From the NCBI GenBank assembly GCA_963281255.1, contig OY725493.1, positions 1,053,550 through 1,117,549 of the forward strand: a stretch of DNA of 64,000 bases, in the 5' to 3' direction. This stretch comes from Aphrocallistes beatrix. Lineage: Eukaryota > Porifera > Hexactinellida > Sceptrulophora > Aphrocallistidae. Below the pieces are notes generated by a model. That model did no database searches. It saw only the letters and a program-made list of their open reading frames with translations, and was not told the DNA's origin. The translations under genes and the position numbers were made by a program. Positions 296 through 52,439 of this stretch are shown in pieces. Numbering within the stretch: the stretch's first letter is position 1; the number at the start of each line of letters is the position of its first letter.

Positions 296-526
296 TGAGT
301 TGGTACGTACGATTTCAACGTAATGTGCTGATATGATGGAACATAGCGCGTAGCTACTCTACTACGATATGTATAAATACAAACGTACTACATAGTGTAG
401 TAAGATATACTGTCCTATGTTAGTTTGTTCTGGTCCTACGCTATAGTCACATGACACCTGTTATTGAATTACATCACAACGGTTAATAATTCTAGTGACA
501 TACCACTAGAGTAAGTGAAGTAGTTT
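296..526. promoter_or_regulatory. Divergent intergenic region between the ovoA-like gene and SVIP
   Basis: About 230 AT-rich bases separate two starts that point away from each other, so the region probably carries both promoters. I see no clear TATA box or other named motif. Confidence 0.35.
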
Positions 527-751: not shown

Positions 752-897
752 GGGAGAATTTGTGTTATCAAAGTGTTTTGCATTTGGAAGAAATATTCAA
801 TTTTTAAGAGTAAAGAAGTGTATTCATTGTTTGATAATGTTCTATAGCATTACAACCTACGTCGCATATGATCTCTACTTTGCAGGATAGACTTAGA

Positions 898-3337: not shown

Positions 3338-3498
3338 CTCACATTACGCTGATGTCAGATATTCTTTGAATGGTAACCTTGTTCATACAAGGTATATCGC
3401 TTGCAATCGCTAGTTAGCATAACTTTCATCTTCGAATTACCCCCAAGAATTTTATAAACTGTTTTGACCGTGTCGAAATATTAAGAGCTATATTTGTA

Positions 3499-3963: not shown

Positions 3964-3972
3964 ATATTTGTA

Positions 3973-4867: not shown

Positions 4868-7800
4868 ATGTCTTCTGAGTCACCTATCAATGAGCCACCT
4901 ACCGATGAGCCACCTGCCAATGAGCCACCTGCCGATGAACCACCTGCCAATGAGTCACCTGCCGATGAGCCATCTGCCGATGAGCCACCTGCCAATGAGC
5001 CACCTGTCAATTCCAGTCAGGAGGATGACGCAAACAAGGATCCAGTAGACGTCAGTTTCCACGTTAACGAGACCAGTGCAGCGGAGTTCATGGTAATAAA
5101 ACGGATTTACATACGGGGTTGCTATTAAGCTCAATCTAACTCGGGTCGATGCTGTATGAGTATTTTCTTTCAGGATGGACAGAAGGAGAACAGGAAAGAT
5201 TCAATACTTTCTGATGGTGAGATTTCAGATGACTCGCTTCCACCCCCAGACACTTCACAGGAGCCAACAGCCACTCAGGGAGAGCTGGTATTCGAGGAGG
5301 GCCTGTCCGGCATCACGCTGTCAGTGGACAGACAGGAAGAGGCCCTGCTGACACCTGACAGTCGGGAGGAAGGGGAGCTGGAGTCGGATGGAGAAGTGAT
5401 CTCTGAGAGAGAGGACGTTGAGAAGGAAGAGGGGGAACAGACCGATGAGGATCCTCATCAGAAGGTGCACTCCTTGATTGCGCAATTGTGGATTATTTTA
5501 TTGTTATTCTGTCTCTGTTATAGGCTGTGGCAGAGAAGGATGAGGATAAAGATGACGATGAAGGTACTGCATGAAAGCGGAATATTTCCTATTCTCTTCT
5601 GTGTTTTAATTATATCAATTAATAGATGACACCCCAGCATGTAAATTCTTTCTGCAAGGTAGAGCATAGGATTCAACGGAGACTGTTTGTTTGGATCATA
5701 AATGTGGAATTTGTATTCATTTGTATTGAAATTCAATAAGTATTTCTGATCAAAATATACATCTCGATTCCATGCTAATCGATGTGCTCACTTTCACTCT
5801 ATCTACTTACATTAGGGAACTGCTTGTATGGGTATATGTGTCGATTCCGCCACGACTGCCAAGGTACATAATTACTCACTTCTTCACAAATCAAAATTTT
5901 AATAAAATATTTGAGAAGCAATCCTCTAGAGCTGAAGCCTGATGCTGTGAATGAGGACGGAGAGTTGATTGGGAAAGGTTCGCCTAAGAGTCCGCGTGAA
6001 AAGGGTATAGACTAGATCTAGGTTGTCGAGGGGATTCGAACCCTTGCATTATACACCTTCTGTTTATAGAGTCGGATCAAGTCGCCCTCGCTCCTCCCTT
6101 CCCGCCCCCTATCCCCTTCCCCCCGATGCTGACTCCCGGTATGCCCCCTCCCCTCCTCCCTCCGTTCCCTCCCTTCCCACCCTTTCCCCCCACTCTCATG
6201 CCGCCGTTCTTTCCGAGCCTTCCCGTCCCGCCGCCCGCTACTCCCACCCAGCTGCCTACCCCCACCCCCTCTCCAGCCCCCGAGAAGGAGGGAGATGGCG
6301 CGCAGAAGGCGTCTGGAGATGAGAAGGAGAGTGACGATGTAAGTTGGTGCAGAGTAACATTCAAGATTACTATTATCCTATACGGAGTAGAATATAATTT
6401 GTAAATTTGCAGACTTGCAGTTGTTAATACTGATTATATTTATGTGTGGTGTTTGTAGGATAAGCTACAGGAGCAGCATTGGCTCAAAGGACTCAAGACC
6501 GGGAGAACGGTATTCTGATATCCTCTGTAGACATATGTTGTTGCTTATGTTTTATTGATTGCATTCCATTAGGCTTACACGGTAGCTAACCGTAGGAGGG
6601 AGCTAGCTCTCACGGAGCCGCTGGAGGTGCTTCCGGACTCCAGCCCTGAAGTGAAGCCGAAGAAGCGATGGGCCAAGAGATCCTCGAGGTACTCCAAGCT
6701 GCACTCCCCCGGCTACTCTCCCGAGTACCCCGACGACGACCCTCAGTACAGCGCGTTCGCCACCTTCACCGAAATCCCGGAAAAGGTAGCTATTGTTAAA
6801 CATGAACTAACATTCTGGTCCCGATTCCATTATTCACGTAGGATTTGCATTGAATCAAGTCTGCTTAATATGAAGTCTTTCTGTTATGAACACCTTTTTT
6901 GTTCCCTGTTGCTTCGTAATAAGCGACCCTGACTGTATTGTCTGGCTGTCGTGGCATGTAGTTTGTAACATACCCTTTTTGCAGGTTAAATCGAGATCTC
7001 CCAAGTACACTCTTCCCCACTCGAGAAGGTAACTTGTGAATTTGTCACCTTCCTGGAAGTTGAATTCATGTTTGTAGTCTTAGGCGTACGAAGTACATCG
7101 GTTCTCCTGACTCGGACCATATATGGAGGAACCGGAGGAGACGCTCCAGCGACCACTTCCTGAGTCGGAGTGGGAGTCACAGCAGGAGTGAAAGAGAGGA
7201 CGGGAGCAGGAGTCCTCTCTCGCACCTGACCATCACGAGTAGATCCAGTTCGTGTTCTTCCACCTTTGTCCTCCCTCCCCCCAGACCGGACGTGTCCAAC
7301 TCTCCATTGCGGTTGGAGGCAGAGGAGATGTGAGTTGAAACTTTACGGGACAGGAACCTAGCCTCATTCTACTCTTAATCTCTCCCCAGAGTCCACGTGC
7401 GGTCTCCCTCTCACTCCAGCTCGAGCTCCAGCACCTCCAGCTCCTCTTCCGACTCCAGCAGTGAGGTCTCCTCCGACTCCAGCTCCCTCTCAGATCAGAG
7501 CTCCATCGCCTCCTCACAGCTCGCCTCCCCCGGACACGATCCGGACAACCTGACGGACGGGGCCTCTCCCCTCCCGAAGAAACTCAAAATGGAGAAAGCG
7601 ATCAAAGCCTCGTACGGCTCTGACATCTCGGACGATGAATTCGGGCAAGTTTGGAGACTGGGAAATTGGAAGCTACAAAGTTTTGAAGTGTAATTGCATC
7701 TGTAGAATGTCAGATGAAGAGGGAGGTAGGAAGGACTCTAAGAAGTACAAGGAGCTCTCTAAGGATCGCCCCAGCATTTCATTCTCTCTCGGCAGAACCA

Positions 7801-30798: not shown

Positions 30799-30961
30799 CG
30801 ATAATAGTACTTATATGGAACATAATAAGTTCTGTTTTAAAATAATTATAAATAATTTTATCACATGGTAGCTAAAGAATTGATTTTCTAAATCAGACCT
30901 AAACTATTTGCTTGCGTAGTGCTTACACACATTCCATTCCAGTTCCGTTCTACGAGTAGAG

Positions 30962-32773
30962 ATGCCCCCTAAGCAGATCCAGGTGCAGATCCACATCCAC
31001 ACGGAGGAGGAGTGGAGGACACAGATGGAGAAGCAAGGTCTGCACTTGGTAGACGCGTATGTGGAGTGGTCTGGGCCGTGTAAGTCCGTGACTAGCCTCT
31101 TCAAGAAGATCAAAATGGAGTGTGGAGACTCTCTCCTTCATTTCGAAACAGCTCCATCCGAGCAGATCGCTCAACTGGAGCCGTACAGAGGCAGATGTCA
31201 ACCCGCCTTCCTCTTATTCGCCGGCGGATGTCTGGTGGGGGCCGTGCACGGGTGTAACGGGCCTAAGCTAGAGCAGGTGATAAAGCGAGAGCTGGAGAAG
31301 GAAAAGAAGATTCTAGAAAGCGGACTGGACCGGATTCCGTTTGAAGATTCAGAAATGTTGCAGTTAAAGCAGCTGGAGGCGAACTTGGGCTGCGAACCTA
31401 AGCCAGAGGAAACGGCGAAGGAGGAAATCGTCCCTGTCCGTAAAGAGTTCACCATCTGCATAATAAAGCCGGATGTAGTGGCTGCGGGTAAAGTGGACGA
31501 GGTGATCTCTCTGATTCGCGCGCGGTTTATCGATATATTAGCTCAGAAGCAGGAGACGCTGAGTGAAGAGGTGGTGAGGGAGTTGTACTCACATCTGTTA
31601 GAGGAGAGCTTCTTTCCGGACCTGCTCAGTTTCATGACAGGGGGACCCTCTGTCATCCTCCTGCTCTCCAAGATGGGACTCACGGGACACGGGATCGTGG
31701 ACGAGTTCAGAGAAGTGATAGGCCCGTTTGACACAGAGCAAGCCAAGGCAGAGTTCCCCCAGTCCCTACGCGCTCTCTACGGAACCTCCAGCATTCTCAA
31801 CGCAGTGCACAGCAGCGCTAGCGTGGAGCTAGCCGCGAGAGAGCTGGCCTTCTTCTTCCCGCAGTCCGCGGTCCCCTACGTCCGCGGAACGGTCCCCGAG
31901 GAGAGGACTCTCGCTCTGATCCGTCCGGACGCCCTGGCCCAGCACAAAGACGCGCTGCTGGAGAAGATCAGAGAGGCGGGGTTCGAGATAAGTTTCGCGA
32001 GAGAGGTGGAGTTGAGTCGGGAGCAGGTGGAAGGATTCTTCGCCGATCAGAGAGAGGAGGAAGGGTTCGAAAAGCTCGTGACTGACATGAGCTCTGTGCC
32101 GGTACTAGCGCTGTGTCTCTCCGGGAAGGACGTGGTGCAGAGGTGGGTGCAGTTGATCCAACCGCTGGTACCTGAGAGTGCGGAGACGGAGGGCACAGAG
32201 ACTGATACCGGTCGCCGGCCCAGTATCCTGGGCATGATCAGTGACCTCCTGCCCGAGTCCCCGGCGGTACCGGTGTACGGGTCTTCTTCCGCACAGAATG
32301 CCCTCTCAGACATGGACACTGTCTTCCCGGAACAAGAGACCATCGCCGTCATCAAACCTAACGCATTTCCACACAAAGACACGATCATAGATAAGATTCA
32401 GGATTTGGGGTTCAGTGTGAAGGCTCAGAAAGAACAGGTGTTCAATCAAGAGCTTTTCGAGGCATTCTACAAGCAGCACGAGGGACAGGAGTTCTATGAG
32501 AACTTGAAAGAGTTCATGACATCCGGTCCATCCATGGTGCTTCTTCTCTCAGACAGGAATGCGATCTCCAAGTGGAGAGAAGCGATGGGACCGATCGAGC
32601 CGACTGAGGGCCTCAGGGGGGTGTTTGGACGCGACGCAGTGGCGAACGGACTCCACGGGACTTCAAACGACGAGAAAGTAGAAGAATTCGCGAAATTATT
32701 TTTCAGTGAAAGCAACCAGGTCACTTCTGAAATGGAAAATAAGGAAGATGACCAAGAGACCACAGAGCCCTGA
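30962..32773 (+). CDS. NME8/TXNDC3-type thioredoxin + triple NDP-kinase protein
   Basis: A single-exon ORF of 603 residues (human NME8 588). A thioredoxin domain (about 1-115) is followed by three nucleoside diphosphate kinase domains (about 160-300, 315-445, 460-590). NME8-type proteins are parts of cilia and sperm axonemes, in the outer dynein arm. The thioredoxin site reads WSGPC, so the first Cys is Ser and dithiol chemistry is unlikely. Kinase domains 1 and 3 keep the phospho-His (LNAVHSSAS, NGLHGTSN). Domain 2 reads QNALSDMDT and lacks it. NME9-like proteins have only one or two kinase domains, so NME8-type fits better. Confidence 0.87.
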   Translation: MPPKQIQVQIHIHTEEEWRTQMEKQGLHLVDAYVEWSGPCKSVTSLFKKIKMECGDSLLHFETAPSEQIAQLEPYRGRCQPAFLLFAGGCLVGAVHGCNGPKLEQVIKRELEKEKKILESGLDRIPFEDSEMLQLKQLEANLGCEPKPEETAKEEIVPVRKEFTICIIKPDVVAAGKVDEVISLIRARFIDILAQKQETLSEEVVRELYSHLLEESFFPDLLSFMTGGPSVILLLSKMGLTGHGIVDEFREVIGPFDTEQAKAEFPQSLRALYGTSSILNAVHSSASVELAARELAFFFPQSAVPYVRGTVPEERTLALIRPDALAQHKDALLEKIREAGFEISFAREVELSREQVEGFFADQREEEGFEKLVTDMSSVPVLALCLSGKDVVQRWVQLIQPLVPESAETEGTETDTGRRPSILGMISDLLPESPAVPVYGSSSAQNALSDMDTVFPEQETIAVIKPNAFPHKDTIIDKIQDLGFSVKAQKEQVFNQELFEAFYKQHEGQEFYENLKEFMTSGPSMVLLLSDRNAISKWREAMGPIEPTEGLRGVFGRDAVANGLHGTSNDEKVEEFAKLFFSESNQVTSEMENKEDDQETTEP

Positions 32774-32951: not shown

Positions 32952-35900
32952 CTATCTGCTGTATGTTATAAGGTAGCTGGGATATGCCAGTCCGTTGGAG
33001 TAGAGGATGTATATCTGAGATCCACATGTCGTTCCTGCTATAGAGTGATAGCCTGCTGCTGGTCCCTGTATAGAGCCATCAGGTTTCTTAGTCTCTGCAT
33101 ACCCTACAAATACCTGAGCTAGGAACATGCAGTACTCGCCATTTCCTAAATCATAAGCATACCCATCGGAATAAGAGGAGTTAACTGCGAAATATAGCCC
33201 ACTCCCCCACAGCCCTTTCCGAGCGTAATCCATACAGAAACCCACATCGTGTTTGTAGATTCTTTGCGGTTCTGTACCACGCGTGCCGTGAAACAGCGGT
33301 CTAATCATGAGACAGTTTTCTCCGTGTTGACTCACTTGCTGCTTGACATTCCCGCTGAAAGAAGCCCAGCATTTTTTGTTCTTCACCTTCTCTATCGAGA
33401 TTATCTTCGCTCGTGGCATTGTGGCGAAAAAACTTCGCGCTACTGTGAAGAATTCTTCTGTGTCTGTATCCAGTTTAGCAATGTCGAAGTCTTGCACCAT
33501 TGGGACTAAATAACACAGAAATATGGGTGAACACAATTAAGATAGTACGTGAAAATTTCAGGCATTATACATAACAAGCGCGCTTCGCTTGCTTGCACTG
33601 CGCGGCTGGCGGACACTTTGTGTCCGCCGGAGATGCCTTTTGAGCGCCTAGGCTCTGATTAATTTTAGGTAGATACATCTCAAAATACTCCTTTCTTACT
33701 GTTATAATCGATATCACTCGAAAAATCACAAAATTTGTCAATTTTTAAATGTTTGAAGCGTAATGATGACATCACAACAGAGTGATGAGTCATCATCTTT
33801 TGATGATAGTTGAGATCTTTTGATGACATATGTGAGATATATTAATATACACATTCTATTAAAATTTCAGCCTTCTATCACCTAAAATGACTGAGTTATA
33901 GTCGAAAAACTGAAATTTATAATTCTAAAAAAGGACGAGTGTTATCTTAGCAGCGGATTAAGTCACACTTAATCGCTTATAACTCGAAAAGTATTCGTCC
34001 TAGATCAAAAATAATTATACCAGTGGAAAGAAGAGAGTTGGTGTATTTCATTTTTAAGTTTAAAATTTTAAATTTTCACAAAATGAGTTAGCAGTGACAC
34101 ATCAAATTTAGGTCTCAGTTTTTGGTTAACCCGAGCACGTCCAGGAATGTTGAATTGAAAGTGAAAGTTAATTGAAAGTAAACTGAAAATGAAAGTGAAA
34201 GCTGGGTCATTTCTATTTATACCTTTGACCCCAAGTAATCCTCGGGTTAATATCTCATGAAATATTTGTGATAAAAACTTTTCCTTTAACCTTCGCCTGG
34301 CTACGTCTCAAAAGTATAAATATAGAAAACCCCACTTTCATTTTCACTTTCAATGTACTTTCATTTTCACTTTCAACATTCCTAGCCAACCGAGGGTTAA
34401 TTAAACTACGTTTATTTCAGCCTTGGTGTATTTTGTATTTCAAATTTCAAATTAAAATATTAATTTTTGAATGAATTATTAATATTTGAATTTTACATTA
34501 TAATAATGTGTATGTGATGTCACCGGGATTGAATCTATAAAAAAAAACACCCACAGACGGGATGGAAGTGTGCTTCCAAATCTCATAAGTTACCTTAAGC
34601 CACCTTTATTATGGGATACCGACATTTGGTTACACGACAATCCGTTACACGACATTTGGTTACAGACAATTCGTTACATGACAATTCGCTACTGTGACAT
34701 TACGTTACACGACCATTCGTTACACGACATTTCGCTACTAATTTGATTGGTCAATTCTAAACACTTCAAAGTTATTGTTTAAAATCATAGAAAAATTGTT
34801 GAGACAGGCTAAATTCATTGCAGGAGCTCAGCCACCTAAACGTGTAAAGACACAAGCAAACGAATTAGCGCTGAAGAATCTCATCGCTAGTTATTTCTAT
34901 CGCCCTAGGATTGAGTTCCTAAGAGGGGTTGCACATCATTTCGGGATGGATGCTAACTAGATGATTGATGCTAACTAGATGATTGATGCTAACTAGATGA
35001 TTGATGCTAACTAGATGATTGATGTTAACTAGAAGTTTTTGTGTTATTTTTATGATTACTTTACAATATTCTGTGTACTGAAGTATGATTTTAAACAATA
35101 ACTTTGAAGTGTTTAGAATTGACCAATCAAATTAGTAGCGAAATGTCGTGTAACGTAATGTCACAGTAGCGAATTGTCTGTAACCAAATGTCGTGTAACG
35201 GATTGTCGTGTAACCAAATGTCGGTATCCCCTTTATTATACTTAAATAATAAATTCCAGTCCATGTCGTTAAAAGTTATTTTATGATCGAATTGATTGAT
35301 CGTAGCATATAACACACTTTAATTCTTGTTAACAATCAAATTGTAGACTGAAAATAGCAGTATTCAATCATTTATATGAAATAGAATCGTGTGAATGGCA
35401 TTATAAATGAAATACACCAACTCTCTTCTTTCCACTGGTATAATTATTTTTGATCTAGGACGAATACTTTTCGAGTTATAAGCGATTAAGTGTGACTTCG
35501 AATCCGCTGCTAAGATAACACTCGTTAAAAAAAGGTGACAATGACGCCATAATTCCATGATGAGTCGACATTTTGGTCGAGGTCAGAACTTAGTGGAGCC
35601 TTTGCTAAAAGACTCCTCATGCCAAAAATCAGCTTTTTTCAGCTTTTAAATTTAAAAATTGACAAATTTGGTGATTTTTCGTGCGATATCGATTATAAGA
35701 GTAGGACAGACGTATTTAGATATGTTATCTTCTTTATAATTAATCAATGTGACCCCAGGCGCCCAAAGGGCGCCTCCGGTGGACACAAAGTGTCTGCCAG
35801 CCGCGCAGCGCAAGCAAGCGAAGCGCGCTTGTATATATATAAATACAAATTAATCGAGTTTTAATAGTAAGGATGTACTATACTTACACAACAGCCTTTC

Positions 35901-38900
35901 GTTGAGTGAGAGACAGGTCTGATCTATGAATCCTGCATCTCCTTCCTCCAGCATCAAGGATTCCAGACTCGGGTCTCTGTCTTTGGTCCCTTCTTTGAGC
36001 CTATGCAGAATGTTCCTAACCGCTTTGGTTGCGTTTCGTGCCATGTCGAGTGTGAAATGTTCCCTCGGAGTGTAGAAGCCTATTCCTGAAGTCATGCAGG
36101 GGAGGCGTGTCGGCTCATCGAAGTTCATCAGTGGAATTATCAATTCCCGTAGCTTCTCATAAGTCTTTTCTGGTAAACAATTCTTCGTTTGTTCAACGAG
36201 AATGCTCAGATTCCTTTCAAAGTAGAGATCGAAATCACATCCTCCACACAAGTGCAGGGTAGCGATGAGTGACTTCATGGTAGCCTCGAAGCAGAGAAAA
36301 CAGGATTGCGGGGGAAATACGGTAGATTCCTCGGCTGACTTCTTGCTCAGCCGCATGGCAGCTCTCAGATCGCACTGAGCAGTTGTTATCCAGAGCTTAG
36401 CTGCTCCTATGTCCGGTCGATTCTTGCCAACTCCCGGCCGAGGGGTAAGTGGTTGCACTGGTATGTGCTGAGTCAGATTGAGTAGTGTCACTGGGCCTGG
36501 AGGGATATGATAGGTAGGCGCGGGAGTTGGATTGACTGTGGGAGGTAACGCTGGGTTGATGGTGGGAGGAGGTATAGGAACTGGAGGTGTGTAGGCTTGA
36601 GGTACTGTAATTTGATCCAAAAATGGACATTGGTTGATGTCCATTTGGTCTAATACCGTCATGATGTCGTTTAGTCCTGAAGAAAAGCAAATCTGGAGTA
36701 CATTTATAGTTCTGGAATAAATGTTTGCTAAGAAAGAGTTGATTTCTCGCGCAACGAATGTCGGCAAGATGACCAGGGTAGAGAGACTTATGTCGATGTA
36801 GAGTATCTTATTAGTGCGATCAATGAAACAGCGGAGAGCTTGAGCAATGTCGTGACAGATTTGTGTTCGTTCATCCTTCAGCTCAATGTGGATCTGTTTT
36901 ACAGCTTTTGCTGTCAAACTTTTGATTGCGTCCAGAACGAGTACGTACCCTTCAGTTGAAGGATAGTCGTCCGGATTCTCGCTGTAGTAAATCTTCCCGT
37001 CTTTGATTTTGAGATACAAAATGTTTTTATTCGTCTCGTGATAATACAACCTCATTAAGCATCTGTGGAACAATGGGGATTGGAGGGTCTCTGTGTAATG
37101 GTTAGATTGCCCATGTCCTGTTACTACGTGCTGCAAGGTGGTTGCTGATAGGCTGGGGGTGAATATCTCACTAAGATTCTTTATCTGTAACTGCACTGGT
37201 GGAATTCCAGAGCCGTTCTGGTCTGGTGGAAGAGTTTTGAGAATGTTTATTCCAAAACTATCCTTTCTGATTATGGCCAGTAGAGACGTGTTATCTGCAT
37301 ACAAGACGTCCTTGCAAGGACGGAGTGTGAGCTTGTCATCGTCAGTCAGTACGTAGGTATGCTCGGGGTCTAACAGCTCTGTCGGCGGAATTATTCTCAA
37401 CACCTTTATTAATGCGGAGAATGCTTTCTGAGCCGATTCTTTCAAAGATGTAGTGTCCAATGGACTACTTGCATCCGCGGATTCGTATATAAGCTTTAAA
37501 ACTTCCGCGAAATGTTGATAAGTTGGACTTGTTTGAACTCCGATTTGTTCTAGGAATGCAGTGTACTTTAAAAGGGTAGTGGGAACTTTCAGTAAATAAG
37601 GAGGGATCTCTTCTTCGATATTAAATACTAAATTCATCGGATCGAGCAACGTTCCTTGATTGAAGATACAAGTAAAAGTTATCATTTCTGGATCAAACTC
37701 TGTTTCTTGCTGCAAAAATGCATACGAGTCGTAAAAAAGTTGTTGATGTTCCACCATATCTTGGCTTGATAGGTCTCGACATTGCTGCGATAACTTTTCT
37801 AAATGTTTTACCACTGAACTCAACTTTGGCTTGGAAATAATTCTGAGATGTCCCTTGAGGTAATCAGGAATGTCAGATATGATGCTAGGGAATATATAAC
37901 ACATCATCCCACATGCTGACATGTTCTCGTGAGGTAGAGCTGAACGGAAATCTCCTAATTTCTCCTTAAATTCTAAAGTGCTTCCAGTAATATTTAGGAT
38001 CTTCTTCATCGGAATAAAAGGAATCTCAGCTATGGCATTTAAAAGTAGAATATTAGTGGGCTGAGAGCATAATGCCAATTGGGATCCAACAAAATCGACG
38101 AATATTTTTAGGAATGCTTCAATTTTCACTTTATCATCTAATTTCACGTCTGCAATAAGAACAGCACAATCTTTCAGGATTGGCAACGTTACCCCTTGAT
38201 TGAATCCGATTTCATTAAGCACTCCAATAAGCACAGGGTCTTCACCCCATTCATTAGCGAGTAGATATTCGCTCAGACATAGTCTGAACAGCTCAACGGA
38301 AGGAGAGTAAAGTTTATCAGCAGTTACCCGTTCTTCTAAAGAATTAGCTTTGCAAATAAAAGCTACACTTTTTAGTTGATTGATTAGTTTCGCTCGCGTT
38401 GCTCGATCAACTTTAGAGATTGAAAGAAGATATTTTTTCTGTTTTTTAACGGTCAATTTATCTAAACGAGGAATTATGTATTCAGAAACGAACGTTCCTG
38501 TATCAACTAGTTGTAACCCCATCATCTCACAGACACGCTTAATTAGCTCGACGGGGTTTCCTTTCTCAGGATCTCCAGAGAAAACGCCAATACCTTCAGC
38601 TTCCAATGCATTGAGCTCTTCTTTAGCAATCTTGAAGTTGTGCTCATTAACGTAGCACACTTCGAAGCTAGAAATAGATTTCAACTTTCCATTGTTGGTT
38701 AAAAATATTCTCAGTTCGGATAATACTGCAGCATCTTCCGCACTTATCTCAATAAGGACAGAAAGTAATTTCTTCAGATGTCCTGCATCTTTAACGATCA
38801 ATTCCGCTTTGGGCGAATGACTGTTTCTTAAACAGCCCATAATGTCGAAGACTGTACTCTTATCTGTTTTTGAAATAGAATGTGTGTTCAAAAATGTTAC

Positions 38901-41900
38901 TATTAGTTTCTGGATGTCAGGAAGAACTTGGTCTTTAAAATATTCGAGATTTAAGAATGGGCAATCAAGGGATTTAAAAGCGTTATGCAAACTCCTATCG
39001 TTGTTATATAACTCCTCGCTAGCTATACTGCTTAGAGCACTAATCGAATACTTGTAGAAGGATTTTGAATTCTCAACTTCTCCTCGATGGCACACTGGTA
39101 CTAGGATAAAATCCCCGAACAACTCCATGATCTGATCAATACCTTTGCATTCCTTGATTGCGAACTGCCAGAATAGCAGGCAGCTATCTTTAGTGAAGGA
39201 CTCATCCACTTCTAAATTCTCAGCTAAGAAGTTAGCGTCGAGTGGTTTTAAGAAACTGAGCTCTTCAAGAATCTTAACTAATCTTATAGGGAACTCCGTA
39301 TGGATGAAATGCGAAGAACACTGGGGCAAGAGGGTAGAATATCTTGACAGAAATGTGTCGTCGTGTGGCATAAAACTCGACAGAATCTGGTCAGAATCGA
39401 TCTTTAACGGAAGTCCAGTAATGGTTTTTAACTGTTCCCTGTTTCCTTCCAATAAAACATACTTGAGTAGTAAAACAACTTCTTCGTAGTGAAGCACTGA
39501 ATTTTGCAGTTCGCATGGGAATTCTGAATCTCGAACTAATGAGTCCTTATTGCAAACCAGAAATTCCGCAAGGTGAATTGGTTCTAGCGTCTGGTACTCT
39601 AGATCTAGAGACTTTAAGTTGGTGGATATGGTATCGGGAGCACAGGTAAGAGGATACCGAATCTTGTTTAGAATTGAATATAGTTTGTCTAGCTGTTCAT
39701 TACCAGGAAATATTTTGAAGATTCCTTGATTTTCACCCACAAATGGGTGCAAACTCTCACAATCCATGTCATTATTAGCTAGTATGCATACTCCAGACTG
39801 ATGCAGCAAGTTGTACACTCCTCTACTGATCATCTGCATGAAGGAAGCATTGCTGTTGCTTTCTGGAAAACTGATCTTTGGAAATAAAGAATAAAACCAT
39901 TTGTAATATACTTCTGCTTTAACGTTAGTATCAAGTAGGGATATGTCACTCAGATCTGTTAGCAGTTTGCAAAAAAGAGGCACGAGTACGTTTTCAATCA
40001 CAGCCACATGCCAATCGTATTGCCACGAGCTTTCACTAAACTTTAAAAATTGCCTGTGTGGGTCGACAATAAGAGGTGCGTTGATGTGTATCGGGAAATT
40101 GAATGAAGTTCCAATGGGGAGGTAGCAGAATATATATGAAAGAAAACGCTTTGTTCCTTTCGAGATCTTTGAAATGTCCAGAGCAAGGTTGCCGAACATC
40201 TTTCTGAGTTTCTCCGTCTCAATCTTATCCTTAAACTTTTCGTGATCAGGAAAGCTTTCAACGGGCCCCTCGTGGTTATAGCAGAGCCATTCATTTTCTT
40301 CTTCCTTTAGTTTGATCTTTTCGTTACCGGACTCCTCTCTCTGGTGTGAAGTATCTGGAGACCTCACCTCGTTAGTTGGTCTGCTCGGATTAGGCTTAGA
40401 TATGATCCAAGTTTTCGAGGACAATTTTTTCAAAGTCACTGAAACGTCTCTGAGGTATTGATTCGGACCGAATGAACGAATTGTTTGTGGAATGTTCGAA
40501 TGTACACAAGACTCACTTCTTAAAGACAGCTTAGGAAACACCTTTCCATCTTTATCAATAGACAGTACATCAATTCTCTTAATATGCTTCAAAAATATCA
40601 AAATTCTTCGTGCGTGATTCAGAAAATCGTAGAGTATATTTTCGGTGGCTATTATTATATCAGATTTTTTGGCTGTTAGTGGTAAACGGAAGAGAGAATA
40701 AGAACTTTTATTTCTCAAGTTGGTTAGCGTGTGACGGAACTCCTCATTTTGAGTTATTGGAGCGATGTCGTAAGGTTCCAGTTGATCTTTAAACACTCCT
40801 CTCTTGTCATCTCGAATTATTATCTTCTTCCCTGGCAACTGGTATTTATTTGGGATATTCAAGTATTCCCTATAGGGATCAAATATGCAAAGAGTAGAGG
40901 AGTCAACGCCCGCTGTAGAGGTGAGAAGGCAGGGAGAGCGAGTAAGGTGGTACACCGAATTGAAACCGATTCCGAATCGCCCGATGGTTTGCAGACTCCT
41001 CTTACCGCCAATGCCCACCTTTTGTATGCCTTCGATATCCCTCTCAGTAAATGGCTGGTTGTTATAGACGAGGAGAGAAGGTGTGGACTGCAAGCTCTGC
41101 CATCGTTTATGTGTGTCAGATGGGAAGCAAAGGTGTTTAGAAGGGTACTTCTTAAAGTCAAGAATAAAAGCTATTTCTGTAGCCTTCGCGTCCTCAGCAT
41201 TTTGAAGAAGCTCATTGAGAATGGTGACGTCACAGTTTATTTGAGATTTAATATTTTCAATACGATCTTTAATATCTTCGTTTGGTCCGAAATCCTCCAT
41301 TTCGATTCCATCGATTGATTCATCTTCAAAATATGTGCTTCGCTTGCTCTTCGCACCTAAGCGATGAGACACGATAGGGGGAATTGAGTGGTGTACAAGA
41401 TCCTGTCGATCCTCTTCCAAGAATGAGCTCTCCATCCATTCAATATCGTTTCGAAACAAATCATGGGCTGGATGGAGACATTTGTCTTCGGAGATTAGTG
41501 TAGCATCCTCAGGCTGAGTTTCTGTTCTATCATTAACGTAATGCTCCCCAATTATCTCGTTGATCAGTCTTACAGCTAATGTGAAATCGTTCTCATCTAG
41601 AACTTCTCCTTCATAACCAATTCTCATAGTATTAAGAATCTCAAGTGCCTCTTTATAGTCCAAACTCTGATTCATGCCCATGAATTTGAAAAAGTAGCTA
41701 ACATTGCACTTCGAATCGTTCGGAATCATATCTGGGTAAGGGAATGATATCAGGTACTTGCTATTAAACCTGAGGAAGTCTGACGTCATCCTCACCATCG
41801 AGATGGGGTAGAATTCCTTATAGGGAGGGTGCCAAATCCAAGGTTTGTTCTGGAGAGAGTCTTTTATATGTTTTTGCTTTTCCTCGATTGGAAAATCTTT

Positions 41901-44900
41901 CTTTTCAGAAACGAATTTTTCTAAATCTGGTTTTGGGAAACAATAATCAGCTAGCCATCTGAAAACTTTTTTAATCCTATCATCGAATTCTTTATCTGAA
42001 TCCTCATAGTCCTTAATCTCGTCTTGCTTGCTACTCATCACCTCTAACAGTTCTAGTAGCATCTCAGGATCTTCCACGCGACTCTCAATTTTCAGTGATA
42101 TCAATGCCTGTGTAAGTCCGTTGACATCTTTTTCTACAGCGAAATATTTGTGCGTGATAACATGACGGCAGTAGTAAGAGAAACACTGTTGAGGAGCCAC
42201 CAGTCTCTCCTCTGCACATCCCAGATGAGTAAATAGAGGATCTCTCCAGACGGGTATAAAAGGAAGTGATCTGATCGAATCTGGTATTTCGCTTGTCAAA
42301 TCATTTAAATATTTGAGTAGAACCATTGCATGTTTTTTTCCTTCTTCTGCATTTTCACTGTAGATTATCTGTGCAACCTCGCAACGATCAATCAGATCTT
42401 CCTCTGGGAGATGTTCCTTCAAAACTCCTAGCCTCACCAGAAGATATTGAGTTGAAGAGAACAATTCGTTGAAATCTTTGTGTGGGAGCCGTTTATCGTC
42501 AGGATAGTAGATAGAGGAGAATCTTGATTCTGGGTGGATGACTTCACAGGGCTTCCTAAGCACTGGGTTGATATCTCCGCATGGAATGAATTCCAGCTGG
42601 CATAATGGTGACTTCTCAGTACCAGCTCCGCGAAGGAAATTTTCGTTGGATCCTAACAAATTGGTAACAACTAATTTCAAATCCTCCAAGCTCTCATTCT
42701 TGATCTCCTCTAGGCTAGGGAATATCAGCTCAACACATAATCTTTTAAAGTCATAAGTGTTAGTAGCATCTTTGAATAATGTTTTGAAAAAAGGTTTGGA
42801 GATTAAGTTCGATGGCATATCAACAAGATACACGCCCTCCTGAGCTGCAAGTTTGTGTATGAAATCAATGAACTCTTTGGAAATTGAGTGTACATTTAAG
42901 AAAGATGACTCTTGAAATGTAAGCCATTTTCTAGGATGAAGAGTACATGGGAAAAGAGGGGCGTTTGAATTGAGTATTTTTTTCGCAGTTCTCTCGGGAT
43001 ACTTAGTCCAAGGTTCAGATTCAGAACTTGACAACGGCCAAAAAGAATAATACTTTTCTAATTGTTTATCCGTGAGAGATCCATCACTGGTGTCAGATGT
43101 AATTTCACTCGAGATTTTCATTAGTAAGGTAATGAGAGCGTTCGGGAGTGCATCATTGATGAGGGAGATGTTCCACTGAGTAAGATGGCCATTGCTGTCT
43201 GTAACGTGCAGTTCTGTGCGGTATGCGTTTAAATGGAAGTATCCATTAATATGCATATTGTAAGGGGACTTCTGTGGGATGGGGAGGAAGCAGAATAGCT
43301 TGTACTCTTCTTTCTTGCTCCTCTGTGCCTGACTCCCTTCAAGATCTACTAATAGCACTCGTCTGGGTATAGCTACTGATGAAATTGGGAGTACGGATGC
43401 CTCTCTCAGTTCTTTAAACTCTCTGATCACTTCAACGCACTCTCCAGTGCCTGATGCATGGGCCAGGATGTACTCCTCGCGACTCTTCTCACCGCTTAAA
43501 TCTTTCTCTATTTCTATGACTTCAATAGCTGTTACATGATCACCCTGATTTAATTGCTCGAAGTGTTCCTTGTGTTCGATTAAAAATGAACTGGAATAAG
43601 GCTTGTTTTTAAAGGTCTTATTCACTTTACAAATTTGTTTAATTTCTCCTCCTACTTCTCGGCGTTCATAAACCTCAATGTTTTCAACGTGTTGTAGGAA
43701 AAATATTACTTGTTCGATCATAGCCAAAAAGGACTTCTGTAAATTTTCTATTTTAGTTGCGGAATCAAATATTCCAGCTGGATTTATTTGTGTTTCATAC
43801 TTCGAAGTGCGAAATGGGAATCGAAATAAAGTTCCATCATACGGGTGACTGCTAAACACGTTGCAATCGAATATATTATAGACGGAGAATTGGTCAGAAT
43901 AGCACTCCTGTAGAATCGCTCCATTCTCTGTGTAGTCAATTGAAAGACCAGGTTCATCTGAGAAATAGTGAGGATCAAGGATGTGGATAAAATTCCTACT
44001 CACAAAGCTAGGAATATCAGTCAGATGGTAGACCGTGTTAAAACCCAGCCCGAAACGGCCAATCTTGGTAGTATCGTCTTTCTTTGTCTCTCCAGCAATT
44101 TCTAAGATATTTTTGAAATCGTCGTTTGAAAAGGTTTTGTCATTATACACATAGAGACTTGGTCCTTGGCACAATTCCATTTTCTCATTTATGAGACTTT
44201 CGCTGTTGTGACAAGAATAATCAAACAGAAATTTCACTGTCTTCGCTTTTGCGTCATCGCTATTCTGCAATAGCTCCTTGAAAACTTCTTCGGTAGCCTC
44301 GTATCTGTTCACAATGTCCTTGAGACGTTTGACTAAAGACTCTCGCTGTCCTTTACTGGCGTATTTGAACTTAAACTTGCTACTAACTACCTTTATGCTG
44401 GAGCTTAGGCTGATCGCCCCCAGCTTAGAAGCGGTAGGGTTGGGGATTTGAGGATGAACGAAAAAGTATGGCTCTCCATTGATTTTAACTTCTCTCTGGT
44501 AATCCCCTTTCTCCTTCCACTTCAGATCATAAAACACACATTTTGAAGATTTGTGAATAAAACCGTCCTCTCCGAGTAGGAAAGCATCATATATATCCTG
44601 AAACTTGGCGAACTCTTCTATGATTTTGATTGCAATCGCTTCATCAGAAGAATCGAGACAAGTTTGTTCAGTTCCACACTTGAGAGATAATTCTGACAAT
44701 ACTCCGTAGCACTGGTCTTGAGTTAGAGTTTTATTAATCTTAATTTCAGAAAAGAATCTTTTCAGTTTCGTGTCCTTTATACTGTAAAACTGTTGTAGCG
44801 TGTGTATGTAAGGTGAGAAAGACCTATCTTGGCTAATAATTACATTTTCTGTGCTAACAAAGCCAAATTCTGGAACATACATACACTCTTTGATTATTGT

Positions 44901-47900
44901 TTCCGTGATGTGCTCTCCCTCATTGTCCATTCTTCGTGCCAATTCTTTGTAAATATTAACCATTTTAGTTAACAGATCTTCTGGAGATTTTCGTAAACTT
45001 TCATAGCTATCTTTAGATGCGATTATTTCATCGAGTATGGCATCCGTTTCAATAGCGCCTATGCTCGTTGGAGAAATGTTCAGTATCCGCAGTGCTTTTT
45101 CATGTTGGCATGTGTCTTCAGATAATATTGGTTGCTGTAACCCCAAAAAATATCTCAGTGAATACAGAGTGGCTTGTTTCGGAGGTGTTAGAGTGGGTTG
45201 CTGTGCGATGACCATTGGATAGACTGCAGCAGAGAGTGTAGGCAGGAAAGGTTGGGATGATAGATTGGATCTTAATTCTTCAATTTCTTGATTTGAGAAG
45301 GCACTCTGATTCAAATAAACAAGTAATTTATTAGCGAGCTCAAAATCAACTTCTTCAGTGATCTTGTTAACTCGCTCTAGCAGATCTTTGAGTGGCAGTT
45401 TGTCATAGACTAATTTGAAGGTTCTCTTCAAGACAGCATAGCAGCTAGAGTCAGGGTTGAACAGAGGTTCATGACAGAAAGAGGCCGGAAATCTGTTTTC
45501 TCCAGGTTCATACATATCAGACAACATTCTATTATTTGGATCAATAACCATTGAAGGTATCCTCATCACATCGCTACAGGGAATACATGGGGTCGTGGAA
45601 ATTAGATCGAAGAGACCGTCAACATTAGAATAAGAAGTGATGAGACCGGGTAGTAGCTCCACCAGTAAACTATGGGACATGTTGGACAGTGAATTAAAGA
45701 AAATTTCAACAAATTTGGTGGTGTCCATTATCCTCTGTGCATTTGCGTTTTGTAACAAGAGATGTATAAGTCCGCTGGATTTGTACAGCTCTGAGGGTAT
45801 AAAAGCAAGCTTGTAGCCCAATCCGATCAAAAACTCCTTAATAGATTGTAGATATTTGTCACTATAGAAGCGTGAATCAATATTACTCTGCAAATCTAAC
45901 TCGTTTAAAACGATTATTTCACTGAAGCTGCTCCAGTGAGATCCATCTGATGCAGTGATAGGAAATACACATGAACTCTCCTCCATTACTTCTTCTGTTA
46001 TTTGTGTACAAAAAGATGCCCAAATCGGGTCAACGCACATTTCTTTCCCAAATACATTATATAGTAGCTGGCAGTAGACGTCTATATCTTCAGATTTGTT
46101 CCGAAACCTTTCTGCCAGGTTAGTAAATAATGTAACAACCGAATTTGTTAGGTTTAACGAAATCATAATGGAATTCCAATTGGTTTTGTAATCTTTTGCT
46201 TGATTGTAATGGAGACTCATTTTGTCGTTGGACAATTCAAACATTCCATGACAATGATACGGCAATTGTAAAGGGATTTGGAGAGGATGGTAGGAGAATA
46301 GTCCGGACTTGTTACACTGCAAATCTAGTTTTGCTGTCTTCTCTAGATTAAAGGCGACTGCAGTAAATGGAGCATGGATAGGAACCTGTTGGTCTCTCAT
46401 AGTTCTGATAATATCAACGAAATCTCTGCCTCCGGTGGAGTAGCACATCAACCAGCGTTTCTGACCCGGGTTACTTGAAGATGTGATACTGCATTCAGGA
46501 GTAGCCTTTTCATAGTCTGTAGCTTTCCCCTGAAGACTCTCTTCTAAATTCTTTCTGCTTCTGCTAATGAAAGATTGACTCACTCCATTTGATATCTCTT
46601 TCCTTACCCAGAACGTTCGCTTCATACAATCACCTGCATTCGTGAATATATTAGCATTTAGTTTATACATCTCAATGAGAACTAAGTTCTGAGTGAATAG
46701 GAGCATGTCTTCAATATTTTTCATGAATTCTGTCTGCAACAATTCAATCGCATCTTCCTGGTTATAAGATGCAACAGAGAGCAGAGACTTCAAGTCTCTC
46801 GGACGGAGAGGAATGCGGAATAGAGTCGATTGGTAGAATTCATTCTCCAGCATTTTACAGCCGAATATATTTTGATACGGTTCGAGCTGGTCCTTGTAAC
46901 ATTTGACGAATTTCTCCCTGCAGAAGTTGATCGTACAAGCAGTATTCTGCTTGTCTGTCTGCTTAACGTACTCGCCATGTGGATCGAGGATGCAGAGTCT
47001 GTCTCCACTGACAAAGCTCGGAAGGTCTGTCACACGAAACACCGAACAAAATCCAACACCATTCCTCCCTATTTTCGTCACATCATCAGCTTTTCCGTAT
47101 CCCCCAACAGATAGGATATTTTCGAAGTCGCCATTGTCCATAGTCTTGTTGTTGTAGAACCATATTGCAGGGCCTTGCCAATGGTGCAGATTATGCGAAA
47201 GCAAAGAGGCCTTTTCAGCGTCCGTATGACTCGGATGCGAACGGAAATCAAACAAAATTTTCATTTCACTTGCGCCAGCGTCATCGCTGTTCTGAATCAT
47301 TTCTCTGAGAAGTCCTAATTCGTCAGTGTAACCTTCCATGATACTTTTGATCCTGTGGATGACGGGCGTGCGTACATCAGCTGACTGATACTCAGTATTC
47401 GTCACTACGCGATCATAGAAATTAGTAATGCCTAGGCTATAGGCTGTCTCTCTAGTGATGCCCTCGTGTGTGAAAATGAATGAATACTCTGAGCACATTT
47501 GAGTACGATTCAACCATTTTTCATCTGTGAATACCAGCAGTTCGTGGTCTGAAACATACAATATGTCGTCATGTCCTGGTACGTAGATGGTATAGCCGTT
47601 AAGATTATTACTGGCTATCGCTGCTAAAATATTCAGTACAATCTTCATGTCTGACTGAGTCACTGGCTGTCCATGAGATTTGGTGTATATGTCGCTTAGA
47701 ATAGTACAGTACTGATCCACCGTTGGTATAGATGGCATACCCATTGCGTTGAATAGATTGATGCATTTGTAGTTCAGATCAGAGCACGAGTAAACATAAG
47801 GTCGCATATCGAATTGCGTTGTTTCAGCTAGGAGGGATACTGCAACGAATTCTCTCCTCTCTTCGATCAGAACAAAACAAGGGTTCAGATCTTCAAAGGG

Positions 47901-50900
47901 CATTGCTAATGGATCCAAATGTTCGTATATAGTCGATACTGTCTTGTAGAGAGAGGCATCTGAGAATAGAGAATCATTGCATGGTTGCTGGGCATATGAT
48001 ATTATATGGTTCAGTTGCTTGATGACCACGTCAGAAGGAATATGAACTTGAAATCCCATACATTTCAGAATTTTCAGACAATTCTCTTCATTTTCCGGTG
48101 CAAGGATGTGCGGTATTAAGATGAAACTGCTAGCATAAGCGAGTAGAGGCAGTTGTTCAGGTGTGCAGGGGATTACTTGGGACGCCAGGGACGGAGAAGA
48201 GAATGCTGTACTCGCTGTGAATTGTAATTCAAGTGGGAAATATTTAGAAATGTTAGTTTGTGGGATAACGAATTTTTGACTAAATTCTTTCCAGAAATTA
48301 TTCTGATCCTGCAGCTCGCATTGAATGAAATAGTGGGAAATAAGCTGCAAGAGAGCTTTGAAACTTACCAACCATTCTGTGTGAGTTTGATGCGACTGAA
48401 GATTCGAGACAGCAGACTTGCAAACCTCTTTGAGAAGTCGTGAGTTTAGGTCAGTATGAGTCTTGAATTGAAAAAATTTCTTCATTTTCTCGACATGGTC
48501 ATCGTATATACCATTTGGGAAGAATCCTTCGTTGCTCCTCATTATGAGATGCTTCAATACGGGATCAGCTGGATCAAGCATTGAGGCAGGTTTGAAAAGT
48601 TTTATTTGTCCCATTTTGTCATGCGGGGTACTGGAGTCAACCAACCATTTTGTCTCCTTCAAACACTCCAAGAGTTCTCCCTGAGCTAGCTGGAGGTTGG
48701 GGAGTCTGTCCAGAATCCAAAATGCAATTAAATTACGATTTTGGGGAGATTGGTAGAGTTCGGATGATACCATATAAGGAACGAGGTCTTTCTGGATGAA
48801 TAACTCTTCAGAGACACTGCTGACATGCAGTTTCTGATATAGTATCACAAGCTGACTGTCAAAAGGAGTCAGGATGTAGCTAGGATAAGAGATGTTCTCC
48901 AGTATCGTCCGAGGAGGCAGAATTGGGGACTTTTGGTCGACTAAGGTACTTAAACTCAACCAATCTTGTCTAAAGTTACGGAAGATTGGAAGACGCTTAA
49001 GTCTATCTGTGTCACCCTCTCCTTCAAGCGGGAGAGTGATCAGGAGTTCAACTAAATCTTTGCGAGTGTTTGAACCAGTTTCAGATAGCAGAGCGATAAA
49101 TTGCGCAAATATGGATTCGTTCTTAAACAGGTCAATCAAACAATGCGGGACAGGTCGTAATACGAATTCATCGAAACACTGAATGAATGAGTTACGATGG
49201 CACAGTGTACAGCCGACACGAGACAATACATCCTCTATAGCTGTTGGTTCGCGAGATTTATCGAACTCTATGTACGGAAATCTTTGAGATCTGATGGCTA
49301 ACAGTTGTATAGGGATGGAGCTGAGTGGAGTAGCAGGTAAGAGGGGGAAATCTCCTACAGCCGCTAGAAGCACCTGGTTACAGCCAATAAAGTCCCATAG
49401 AGACTTGATCCAGCTGGTTTGAGGCTGATTGTTACTGCCAGGGGTCCAGCTGAGTGGGGACATTGAGGAGTTAAACGATTTGTTAAAAAATCGAGATAAC
49501 AAATCGGTGAAGACTCGATCGTCTATGTTAGTGATGTCTTGAATGTTAAGTTCAGTTTCTCTTGCGATTTGAACGAGTTTGGAGTGAATGTTTTCTGGGA
49601 GAGAGGGATCGACAAATAAATGCTCTAAACCCGGAAAGATGGACATGAATGTAGGCGTAATCTCACTAATAAAAAAGGTCTTGTCTTTAGTAGCGATGAA
49701 AGGTTGGGGTTCCCAGGCATGATTTGCTAGAATAATGAGAGGGATTCCGGCCAGCTGTGTAGCAATTCGTTGATTCCCTGCGCTGGTATCTAGATCCGAC
49801 AGGATTATCTCCAGCAGAAGGATCGCATTTTGTCTGTTCGATATGAATTCGAGTAATGAACGCTCTGTGGAATTAGCTATTAAGATATGTCTAATTCCAA
49901 TCGGTGATATCATTCGTGGTTCCACAATCTCCTTCAAAAACTGATATCTGGCAATAATATCTGCAATGGCAGGAGGGAGCTCCACTATGGGTTGCGACAA
50001 AGCCAATAGCAATTTGATGCAGCAATTCTCATTCTCGTTATCCCACAGTTCGCTTGCTGCATCGGGTATTGCGCTAGGTGGATAGAGACCTTCGTTAAGA
50101 GGTATCCACTTGGAAACCTGCGAGTACATTAGCTTCTCATTTAACAGCATTCTCAGACCTTCCCGTTGTATTGTAGCGAACAGAGAATCATCCCGTTCAT
50201 GGAGGTTAATACCCGCCCATAGCTTGTAGTGGTATTTCTCCGGCTGAGGATGCTCCATGCATTGCACTGTCAGACGAAGGAAAGTAGCGTAGAGAACAGA
50301 ACCGAGCATTTCTGTTTGGAATTTGTTCCACTCTGCGTCAAGACTTCTGTCGTAGCTCGACGGCCATTTGAGCGATCTGCGATTATCATCAAGTGCGAAA
50401 TACCCGTGTAAGTGAAAGGGGAATAGGGAATCTTTGGGGATGGGAAGAAAGCAATAGTACTTTCCACTATTCGTACTGAGAGTAGCGTCTGGTTGTATTG
50501 GAAGTGATATTTGTATCTTGGATTGTATAAATTGCAATATACTTTGGAAGTTATCTCCATCCCAATTGAAACTCCACGTGTGCTCTCCACCAATGCTGGA
50601 ACAGTCGTTTGCACATATGGGCATTGCTATTCCAAACCAGGGAATGTATTTCAACGTGTTACGAGTGTAGAACTTGTAAAATGGATTTTCAGTGCTCGAT
50701 GAAGAGCGGGCACCGAAACCTAGTAGATTAAGAACAATCCACACACTCTGGTGCTCGTTCGTGTTTATAGGGTACAGTGTGATGAAGAGTCCTGTCGTGT
50801 CATAGAAACGCTTCTTTTCTGCAAACAAGGTTATCTCTTTCCTATGCTTATAGAGACTGCTTCTGAATGTCTCTGACACTCCGACAGAGTGTAGCAGACT

Positions 50901-52439
50901 TACTTTATTCTCTCGCTTCTCGAATATTTTAATTGAATTAATGTACTTGAGAAACGGCAGAATATGCTCACCTTCTTCCATCAACGGAGCAAAGAGAACC
51001 GCTTTGATTTCCTCTGGGGTGTGCGTCTCGTTGCTAATGGTAGACGTGTAGCTTCCTGTCTTCAGAGGAAATCTGAAGATGGTACCGTCATAGTTGGCTG
51101 TTCCTTCATACCCGAAGTAGTGCTTGGTGAAGCAGCTGTGATGACTGGAATACTTGTCTTTAGTGAAGAAAGTAGAGAGAGGGTAGCGACGCCCTGCCTC
51201 TGAGACATTCTGGGGGTCTAAGTAGCTGATATCTTCGTGGCTGAGGATCCAGGGACAATCCATAGAATTCATTTTAAATACGTATATATTCCGAGCTGTA
51301 TTCACTCCATGTTACACATTAAAACATTAGTTCTTCACCTGTGATGTGGTACATAGAGATGAAGCCAAGTCCAAACCTCCCAACCTTGAGGAAGTCTTCC
51401 TTCTTATTACTACGTCCTGTCTCTTCGATTCCCTGCCAATCCTTGGCGCTGAAGGAGGCGTTGTTCCAGGAGTAGAGCGCGGGGCCCTGGTACTTGGCTA
51501 GGCTTGCATCGATTAGGCCTGATTCCTCTGCTGAGTGAGAATCATAGTCCAGCATAAACTTAACTTCATCTGCCTCAGCGTCATCCGCGTTTTGGATGAT
51601 TTCCTATGCAAACACGAAATAATTTTAGAAATATTTCATAAATTCAAACTATATATCGATTCTCTTGCCCAAGATTCAGGACTTAAGATCAATCAAGGGG
51701 AGATCAGATATTTGAAGTGCAGAAACCGCCAATATTCGAAAAAAAGCTTAAAATATATGCATGCCAACTGTCCCGCTGATTTCACAAATGTCCTACAATT
51801 TTACTGTCTAGTATTGTCCGGGATGGCCGTACATTTTTTGGGAGGACGTCCGCGGTACGCCGCCGACAATAGGCAGAACATCCTGGGACGATCCGGGGCA
51901 TACTGTATCTAGTGGAAGAGTACGAATCTCGGTCATACCTTGAGTATCTGATTGCCAAAAGGATATTTCTCAAGAATCCCTTGGATCTGCTCAATCACTG
52001 TCATCTGTTTATGCCCATAGTGCTCTCCATCTAAGAATCAGAATATAATTCAATGTGTTGACTTGGTATTTGTTACAAAGATCATCCCTCATTTGGGGGC
52101 AGCTTGCTAGTGAGAGTATTTCTTTATTCACCATTGCTACTTGACTGTGCAAGACTAATGATCACTTCGGTTATCGTATATACATACTTAGTTATTACTT
52201 AGTTATAAACTTTCATAAAATTCGCCTTTTTGATTGAATAGAATACAGAAGAGCCGCTATCAGTGGGGTCTCTATAAATGGGAACCTCTATATGTGGGGC
52301 CATTTTGTCCCATCTTTATTCGTTTCCATATAAATGAACCTCTATACGTGGGGAAATGGGGAAATTATTTTTCCATTCAAATGAAGGGTTATTAATTGAA
52401 CTTTTGCTACTTTGACTTACCTACTGGAGCTGTTGCCAT
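32952..52439 (-). CDS. Giant sacsin-like protein with four ATPase modules, HEPN domain and C-terminal PARP domain
   Basis: Five exons (minus): 52421-52439, 51939-52030, 51339-51603, 35888-51295 (15.4 kb) and 32952-33505. All junctions are GT-AG with matching phase and total 5,446 codons. Four HSP90-like ATPase modules open with KEIIQNADDAEADEVKFML (about residue 37), EMIQNSDDAGASEMKILF (about 1460), ELLQNSDDAKAKTVKFLF (about 2460) and ELLQNAEDAKATEIAFIL (about 3480), each with a GRFGLGF-type glycine motif. Human sacsin has three, plus ubiquitin-like and J domains, neither seen here. A HEPN domain lies at about 5085-5225 (GAAKLWITTAQCDLRAAM). The last exon restores a PARP domain from its first residues (FPMVQDFDIAKLD) through LFHGT, GLWGSGLYFAVNSSYS and AYPSYLITY, with H-Y-I character typical of mono-ADP-ribosylation. 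The last intron is filled with transposons. The long frame also has an in-line stop at 35850 if that intron is retained. Confidence 0.8.
34122..34402. mobile_element. Foldback insertion inside the left arm of the large element
   Basis: Ends GGTTAACCCGAG and CCGAGGGTTAA are followed inward by GGAATGTTGAA and its inverse, then GAAAGTGAAAG-type runs facing TTTCATTTTCACTTTCA-type runs. The right arm of the large element has no counterpart, which marks this as a separate insertion. Confidence 0.7.
34613..35230. mobile_element. Second GGGATAC element with 9-bp target duplication (nested)
   Basis: It begins GGGATACCGACATTTGGTTA and ends in the inverse. Both arms carry repeated units of the type ACACGACATTTGGTT or ACACGACAATCCGTT, and long inner inverted arms (for example TTTGATTGGTCAATTCTAAA near 34742). 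A perfect 9-bp duplication, CTTTATTAT, lies at 34604-34612 and 35231-35239. The 34775-34960 frame inside is short and unlike known proteins. It belongs to the same structural class as 3499-3963. Confidence 0.85.
34945..35030. repeat. 18-bp tandem repeat inside the nested element
   Basis: About five copies of ATGATTGATGCTAACTAG, with the last unit diverged by one base. The repeat lies between the inverted arms. Confidence 0.9.
52255..52355. repeat. Degenerate pogo/Tigger-like repeat in sacsin intron 1
   Basis: GGTCTCTATAAATGGGAACC, GAACCTCTATACGTGGGG and related blocks recur in the same orientation in about 100 bases. They resemble the subterminal repeats of pogo/Tigger elements, but clear paired ends are missing. 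Confidence 0.4.

Follow-up and report, generated by a model that had tools for sequence, protein, structure and literature searches.

A giant sacsin-like reading frame and a frame for a PARP catalytic domain, lying one behind the other on the same strand, raise the question whether they belong to one gene or to two. Both are found in a 64,000-nucleotide (nt) stretch of the genome of the glass sponge Aphrocallistes beatrix (contig OY725493.1, positions 1,053,550 to 1,117,549; referred to as the window), where the list of open reading frames contains a minus-strand frame of 5,153 codons (35850-51311) and, 2.4 kb downstream on the minus strand, a PARP-bearing frame of 194 codons. A preliminary description of the window had proposed that the two frames are in joinable phase and that with three small 5' exons they add up to exactly 5,446 codons. 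When the splice signals were re-examined, a phase-1 intron (intron 4) was predicted between the frames, and a recount returned the same figure: with the 5' exons joined, the coding sequence measures 16,338 nt, or 5,446 codons including the stop, in five exons on the minus strand (52439-32952, Table 1). The predicted product of 5,445 residues has the domain order of four SACS modules, a HEPN domain and a PARP catalytic domain, and judged by sequence and homology this architecture is almost certainly carried by a single protein.

Predicted joining of the sacsin and PARP frames

Good support for a single protein that unites a sacsin-type array with HEPN and PARP comes from an ortholog in Oopsacas minuta (class Hexactinellida; the best full-length match from a named organism), from six further loci in the A. 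beatrix genome and from a conserved splice donor. The Oopsacas protein P0006 (5,363 residues) contains PF25794 (SACS) and PF00644 (PARP) in one chain, aligns end to end with the window protein (residues 1-5445 with 1-5363, 52%), matches exons 1-3 with its 5' end, and at the join has LSLNEMFFFPM where the window gene reads LSLNERLLFPM; it is likely to be the ortholog of the window gene. The same order of SACS, HEPN and PARP is found in another protein of this species, P0085 (4,433 residues).

The A. beatrix assembly (100.5 Mb, 28 contigs) was searched with the PARP frame, which gave six further loci at 41-49% identity (C12:4.65M, C12:1.70M, C1:0.56M, C3:6.49M, C3:6.24M and C11:3.35M), and with the sacsin C-terminus, which placed a sacsin C-terminal part just upstream of the PARP at each of them. 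As these six loci repeat the sacsin-HEPN-PARP order, the reading of the PARP as a chance neighbour was rejected. A GTAAGT phase-1 donor, leaving one base, follows the HEPN domain in all seven loci; in six loci analysed by script no other donor word occurs from HEPN to the stop, and at C12:4.65M it was read from the sequence and then measured. With the acceptors chosen, the introns are 60 (C12:4.65M), 370, 425, 522, 1,597, 2,374 and 2,382 nt long, and if the split codon is taken as the starting point, a conserved [AIV][AS]RxF motif begins at residue 22 in 7/7 loci. The window has one candidate acceptor and the AG of C12:4.65M was seen in the sequence, while those of the other five loci were picked among several AGs by phase and position; the agreement between acceptors is thus partly selected, whereas the agreement between donors is not. 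At C3:6.24M the PARP match has one TAA where it begins before the join, and downstream of the join it continues for 190 residues with no stop. We infer that the predicted join is used in the RNA of A. beatrix.

If the frames were two genes, the sacsin-HEPN gene would end at 35850 and the PARP exon would be expressed separately, from its own promoter or through a trans-spliced leader at the 33505 acceptor. The 2.4-kb gap between the frames would suit such an arrangement, but is explained by a high-copy inverted-repeat element which fills most of intron 4. Its outer arms (33574-33664 and 35742-35832, with nested ones inside) probably bound one single element, a 101-nt probe from the element end matches at least 40 places in the genome at 96-100% (the window's own included, with 40 of 3,168 candidates scored), and related sequence is present in the same intron of the paralogs C3:6.49M and C11:3.35M. 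Similarly, intron 4 contains five AATAAA/ATTAAA words which could serve a separate upstream gene, yet this is no more than in single-base shuffles (mean 5.8). Potential start codons are available in some of the loci, as the window has an ATG in third place after the join and another lies ahead of the PARP core at C12:1.70M. The other five of the seven loci have no ATG in the stretch leading from the join to the conserved core of the PARP, although two of these five, C1:0.56M and C3:6.49M, have in-frame ATGs further upstream, inside the intron. Leader trans-splicing has been described in Aphrocallistes vastus, with predicted leaders in 4% of long reads (PMC10282587), and because glass sponges may use trans-spliced leaders, the 33505 acceptor alone is weak evidence for the join. 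A last exon needs no in-phase donor, however, and still the donor is kept at every locus, and at C12:4.65M a gene end and a new start would have to fit, with great difficulty, into 60 nt. In the database proteins P0008 and P0009 HEPN and PARP are read in frame, in one unbroken frame apparently passing through the intron, although these two are close to each other in the tree and are little more than one observation. The 60-nt intron, the relatives that read through in frame and the conservation of the donor led us to reject both the separate-gene and the trans-splicing readings, and we consider two genes most improbable.

A rather unlikely variant is a fusion that is real but optional, where intron retention or polyadenylation in the inserted element would give a PARP-less sacsin-HEPN form ending in CKYSTSLLLKLD, and where inclusion of the PARP would be regulated. 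This would be in keeping with the insertion of the element, which made the intron long, and with the in-frame stop at most 38 nt from the donor, but donor and acceptor are intact, and the 60-nt paralog intron and the in-frame relatives favour constitutive joining there.

Several observations weigh against a single gene as modelled here. The frames of P0003-P0005, the three nearest other orthologs, stop soon after the donor and have no PARP, and the frame of P0007, which is close to P0008 and P0009, stops inside the same stretch, again with no PARP. In Oopsacas the models were predicted with Braker/Augustus, using mapped RNA-seq reads, and are no proof of the junction (PMC10280926), and P0006 is without 16 aligned HEPN positions that seven other rows fill, barring single-residue gaps, so that its model is imperfect in this region, possibly as the result of a falsely called intron. 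The acceptor choice was partly guided in 5/7 loci, as described above, and the acceptor of C3:6.49M was missed by the first scan and located later. Finally, the start of exon 4 falls in a conserved GHKL stretch, 12 residues (ARNIYVFKMNSM) ahead of the Oopsacas join, and no AG is closer.

Paralogs, relatives and probable origin of the fused PARP

A SACS search of the genome gave 47 matches, which were grouped into at least 11 loci. In the stretches fetched, seven of these 11 loci have both HEPN and PARP and four have neither, and thus HEPN and PARP go together among these loci. The four HEPN-less loci (L047-L050, at C20:1.55M, C8:2.94M, C8:2.97M and C7:1.86M) stop short of HEPN, and when three tails that contain HEPN were used as tblastn queries, no HEPN or PARP was detected in the approximately 4.6-6.3 kb downstream. 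The C8:2.97M copy may be interrupted, since its frame changes near its end. By eye, the database protein P0040 shares a 60-residue tail with the C20:1.55M gene, so that the protein database includes the same species or a very near relative.

The PARP tree was made with 19 rows, consisting of 11 sacsin-linked PARPs, seven other PARP loci of the genome (the remaining PARP matches were left out) and P0121, a protein of the dinoflagellate Polarella glacialis. All 11 sacsin-linked PARPs are on one side of a branch (97/97), within which the window PARP pairs with P0006 (94/94, just below the star of the tool) and C12:1.70M pairs with P0085 (98/95). These two ortholog pairs imply that the fusion is older than the split from Oopsacas, as is at least one duplication of the fusion; deeper placements are uncertain owing to several long branches. 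Among the other PARPs of the genome the nearest are 34-36% identical and located on C11 and C9, and the two that were scanned are macro-WWE-PARPs. The fused PARP was probably acquired once, from a macro-PARP-like source, and retained through gene duplication; by its sequence, the window gene is a member of a glass-sponge family of predicted sacsin-HEPN-PARP proteins.

The co-occurrence of these domains in other proteomes, raised in the preliminary description, was recovered in part. PF00644 is present among the precomputed domains of three of the best 120 of 2,176 sacsin-like protein matches (candidates limited to 0.55-1.75 times the query length); two are the Oopsacas SACS-PARP models, the third is P0121, and none of the others among these 120 has it. 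Like the window protein, P0121 (6,802 residues, partial) combines SACS modules with a C-terminal PARP, but this PARP is very distant and falls outside the sacsin-linked group, where it has a long branch, and HEPN is not in the precomputed domain list; the pairing in Polarella is probably independent. Searching giant proteins with the PARP region recovered P0006, P0008 and P0009 (3/57 candidates); as this search missed P0085, its silence on other lineages is weak evidence, and a wider occurrence of the fusion outside glass sponges is compatible with the searches. Named sacsins of other animals match the compared Oopsacas SACS region at about 28-36%, among the matches listed.

That no gene with this exact order had been described holds for the papers searched, as our literature search, with subscription papers and preprints outside its coverage, found none describing a sacsin-HEPN-PARP architecture. 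It does not extend to databases, since NCBI and UniRef contain the two Oopsacas models of the same family and order (P0006 and P0085, under the names 'Sacsin-like' and 'Poly [ADP-ribose] polymerase', and known by these database names only), as well as the dinoflagellate model which pairs SACS with a C-terminal PARP. The word 'sacsin' is absent from the main text of the Oopsacas genome paper (PMC10280926). The architecture is conserved, multi-copy and apparently undescribed in papers.

Domains and possible function of the predicted fusion protein

The joined protein contains a GHKL motif at residues 41, 1460, 2469 and 3490 and a second motif, [GK][RK][FN]G[LIV]GF, at residues 112 (as GRFGLGF), 1535, 2538 and 3564, which we take to be the N-box and the glycine-rich motif of the SACS modules. 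These motifs, the repeated SACS (PF25794) modules and a C-terminal sacsin-type HEPN place the protein in the sacsin-like family, and repeated Hsp90-like modules and such a HEPN are also what it shares with animal sacsin (SACS). It differs from animal sacsin in having four modules and a PARP after the HEPN, while the vertebrate SACS architecture also includes a DnaJ domain ahead of the HEPN and an N-terminal ubiquitin-like domain. A scan of the exon-4 frame, split into three pieces, gave no DnaJ match at E<=0.1, and the joined protein has no HPD. Translation enters SACS module 1 directly, and no ubiquitin-like domain (PF00240) is listed for P0006; the domain scans covered the exon-4 and PARP frames.

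The HEPN domain is located at the end of the long frame, after a proline-rich linker. A genome search with Pfam HEPN gave no matches and the single-sequence match was weak, both of which at first weighed against this assignment, and Foldseek alone found no match for the HEPN model at E<=0.001 (best 3.3e-3); the assignment was settled by profile comparison together with the fold. AlphaFold modelled the HEPN-PARP tail of Oopsacas poorly, with a mean pLDDT of 53, and this model was not used. Since the Rx4-6H RNase motif is missing between HEPN and the exon join, the HEPN is probably not an RNase effector.

The PARP catalytic domain is above the curated PF00644 cut-off (62.2 vs 26.7 bits), and its best solved relatives are human PARP14 (3goy, E 4e-16) and PARP15 (1.4e-14). 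Aligned to 3goy and macro-PARPs, ten of the 11 sacsin-linked PARPs, the window one included, have an intact H-Y-L triad and one has H-Y-I; we take this triad to have its customary place and meaning in the PARP domain. An H-Y-L/I triad predicts mono- rather than poly-ADP-ribosylation, and from triad and homology the domain is predicted to belong to the PARP14/15-type mono-ADP-ribosyltransferase class. Unlike macro-PARPs of the PARP14/PARP15 type, the window gene has no Macro or WWE among the matches in the exon-4 or PARP frames, the macro-WWE-PARP genes of the genome being separate (two scanned). An inactive passenger PARP would be consistent with L rather than E as the third triad residue, but seems quite improbable: H-Y is kept in 11/11 sacsin-linked PARPs, the four aligned macro-PARPs of the same genome also have H-Y-L, and the PARP is better conserved with P0006 (68% over 175 residues) than the whole protein (51-52%).

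The best explanation overall, and a moderately probable one, is that one gene encodes one 5,445-residue sacsin-HEPN-PARP protein working as proposed here; the mechanism itself, a sacsin-type chaperone or sensor with mono-ADP-ribosylation as its effector, is put forward more tentatively. The ATP-binding sacsin modules would hold or sense a client, which may be a misfolded, foreign or cytoskeletal protein, and the HEPN would pair two chains, as a non-RNase pairing or nucleotide-binding module; the HEPN of human sacsin is reportedly a dimer, according to Kozlov in 2011. The PARP, if catalytically active, would attach ADP-ribose, one unit at a time, to the client, a neighbouring protein or its own chain, and the output could be either quality control or defence.

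An active fusion could also serve ordinary proteostasis or cytoskeleton care, with ADP-ribosylation marking clients and no part in immunity, for which we see a chance somewhat short of even. Sacsin modules make up most of the protein and sacsin is treated as a chaperone in unfolded-protein stress (PMC3710099), whereas seven diverged copies would seem to exceed the need for one housekeeping gene, and architectures related to conflict are known in which HEPN is combined with PARP (PMC8195603). The latter include cnidarian TRADD-N/HEPN/Macro/PARP proteins, which resemble the window protein in combining HEPN with a conflict-related partner, just as the sacsin-DEATH fusions of the sponge Amphimedon (PMC3710099) combine sacsin with such a partner in an early animal; in the available text of neither source was the sacsin-HEPN-PARP order seen. 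More doubtful is a lineage-specific repertoire of giant sensors in glass sponges, in which the sacsin array would recognise foreign or damaged protein, the HEPN would be a pairing switch and the mono-ADP-ribosyltransferase (ART) the effector, making up a class of chaperone-ART immune receptors that is not known from animals other than glass sponges.

A single polypeptide of this kind, kept in seven diverged copies, would couple an Hsp90-like chaperone array directly to ADP-ribosylation, and would connect PARP signalling with the quality control of proteins in an early animal lineage, in a way that is open to testing. It would also offer a natural experiment on the purpose of the poorly understood HEPN tail of sacsin, as the HEPN travels with the enzyme and the HEPN-less loci showed no PARP.

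Features of the gene and its surroundings

Table 1. Predicted features of the sacsin-HEPN-PARP gene in window coordinates.
Feature	Positions	Strand	Description
Exon 1	52421..52439	-	19 nt, ATG start; from splice signals and translation; product resembles P0006 N-terminus
Exon 2	51939..52030	-	92 nt; YGHKQMTVIEQIQGILEKYPFGNQILK common to exon 2 product and P0006
Exon 3	51339..51603	-	265 nt; encodes the leading part of SACS module 1; PF25794 at 51340-51615
Exon 4	35888..51295	-	15,408 nt; encodes the remainder of SACS module 1, modules 2-4, spacers of sacsin type and HEPN
SACS module 1, second part	50904..51263	-	PF25794, 47.9 bits
SACS module 2	46650..47366	-	PF25794, 233 bits
SACS module 3	43644..44342	-	PF25794, 236 bits; also HATPase_c_3 match
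SACS module 4	40542..41279	-	PF25794, 166 bits
Sacsin-type HEPN domain	35988..36434	-	no Rx4-6H
Intron 4	33506..35887	-	phase 1, 2,382 nt, GTAAGTAT...TTATTTAG
Inverted-repeat element in intron 4	33574..35832	.	outer arms 91 nt, 87% complementary; nested inverted repeats
Exon 5	32952..33505	-	554 nt including the stop; encodes the PARP catalytic domain with its H-Y-L triad; PF00644, 62.2 bits

Intron 3 of the gene model (51296-51338) is only 43 nt long. A plus-strand frame for thioredoxin and nucleoside diphosphate kinase (30920-32773, the kinase matched in three stretches) converges on the 3' end of the PARP exon, and a separate second PARP catalytic exon (19954-20328, plus strand, PF00644 35.9 bits) is located directly after an Erv1/Alr frame (19142-19843).

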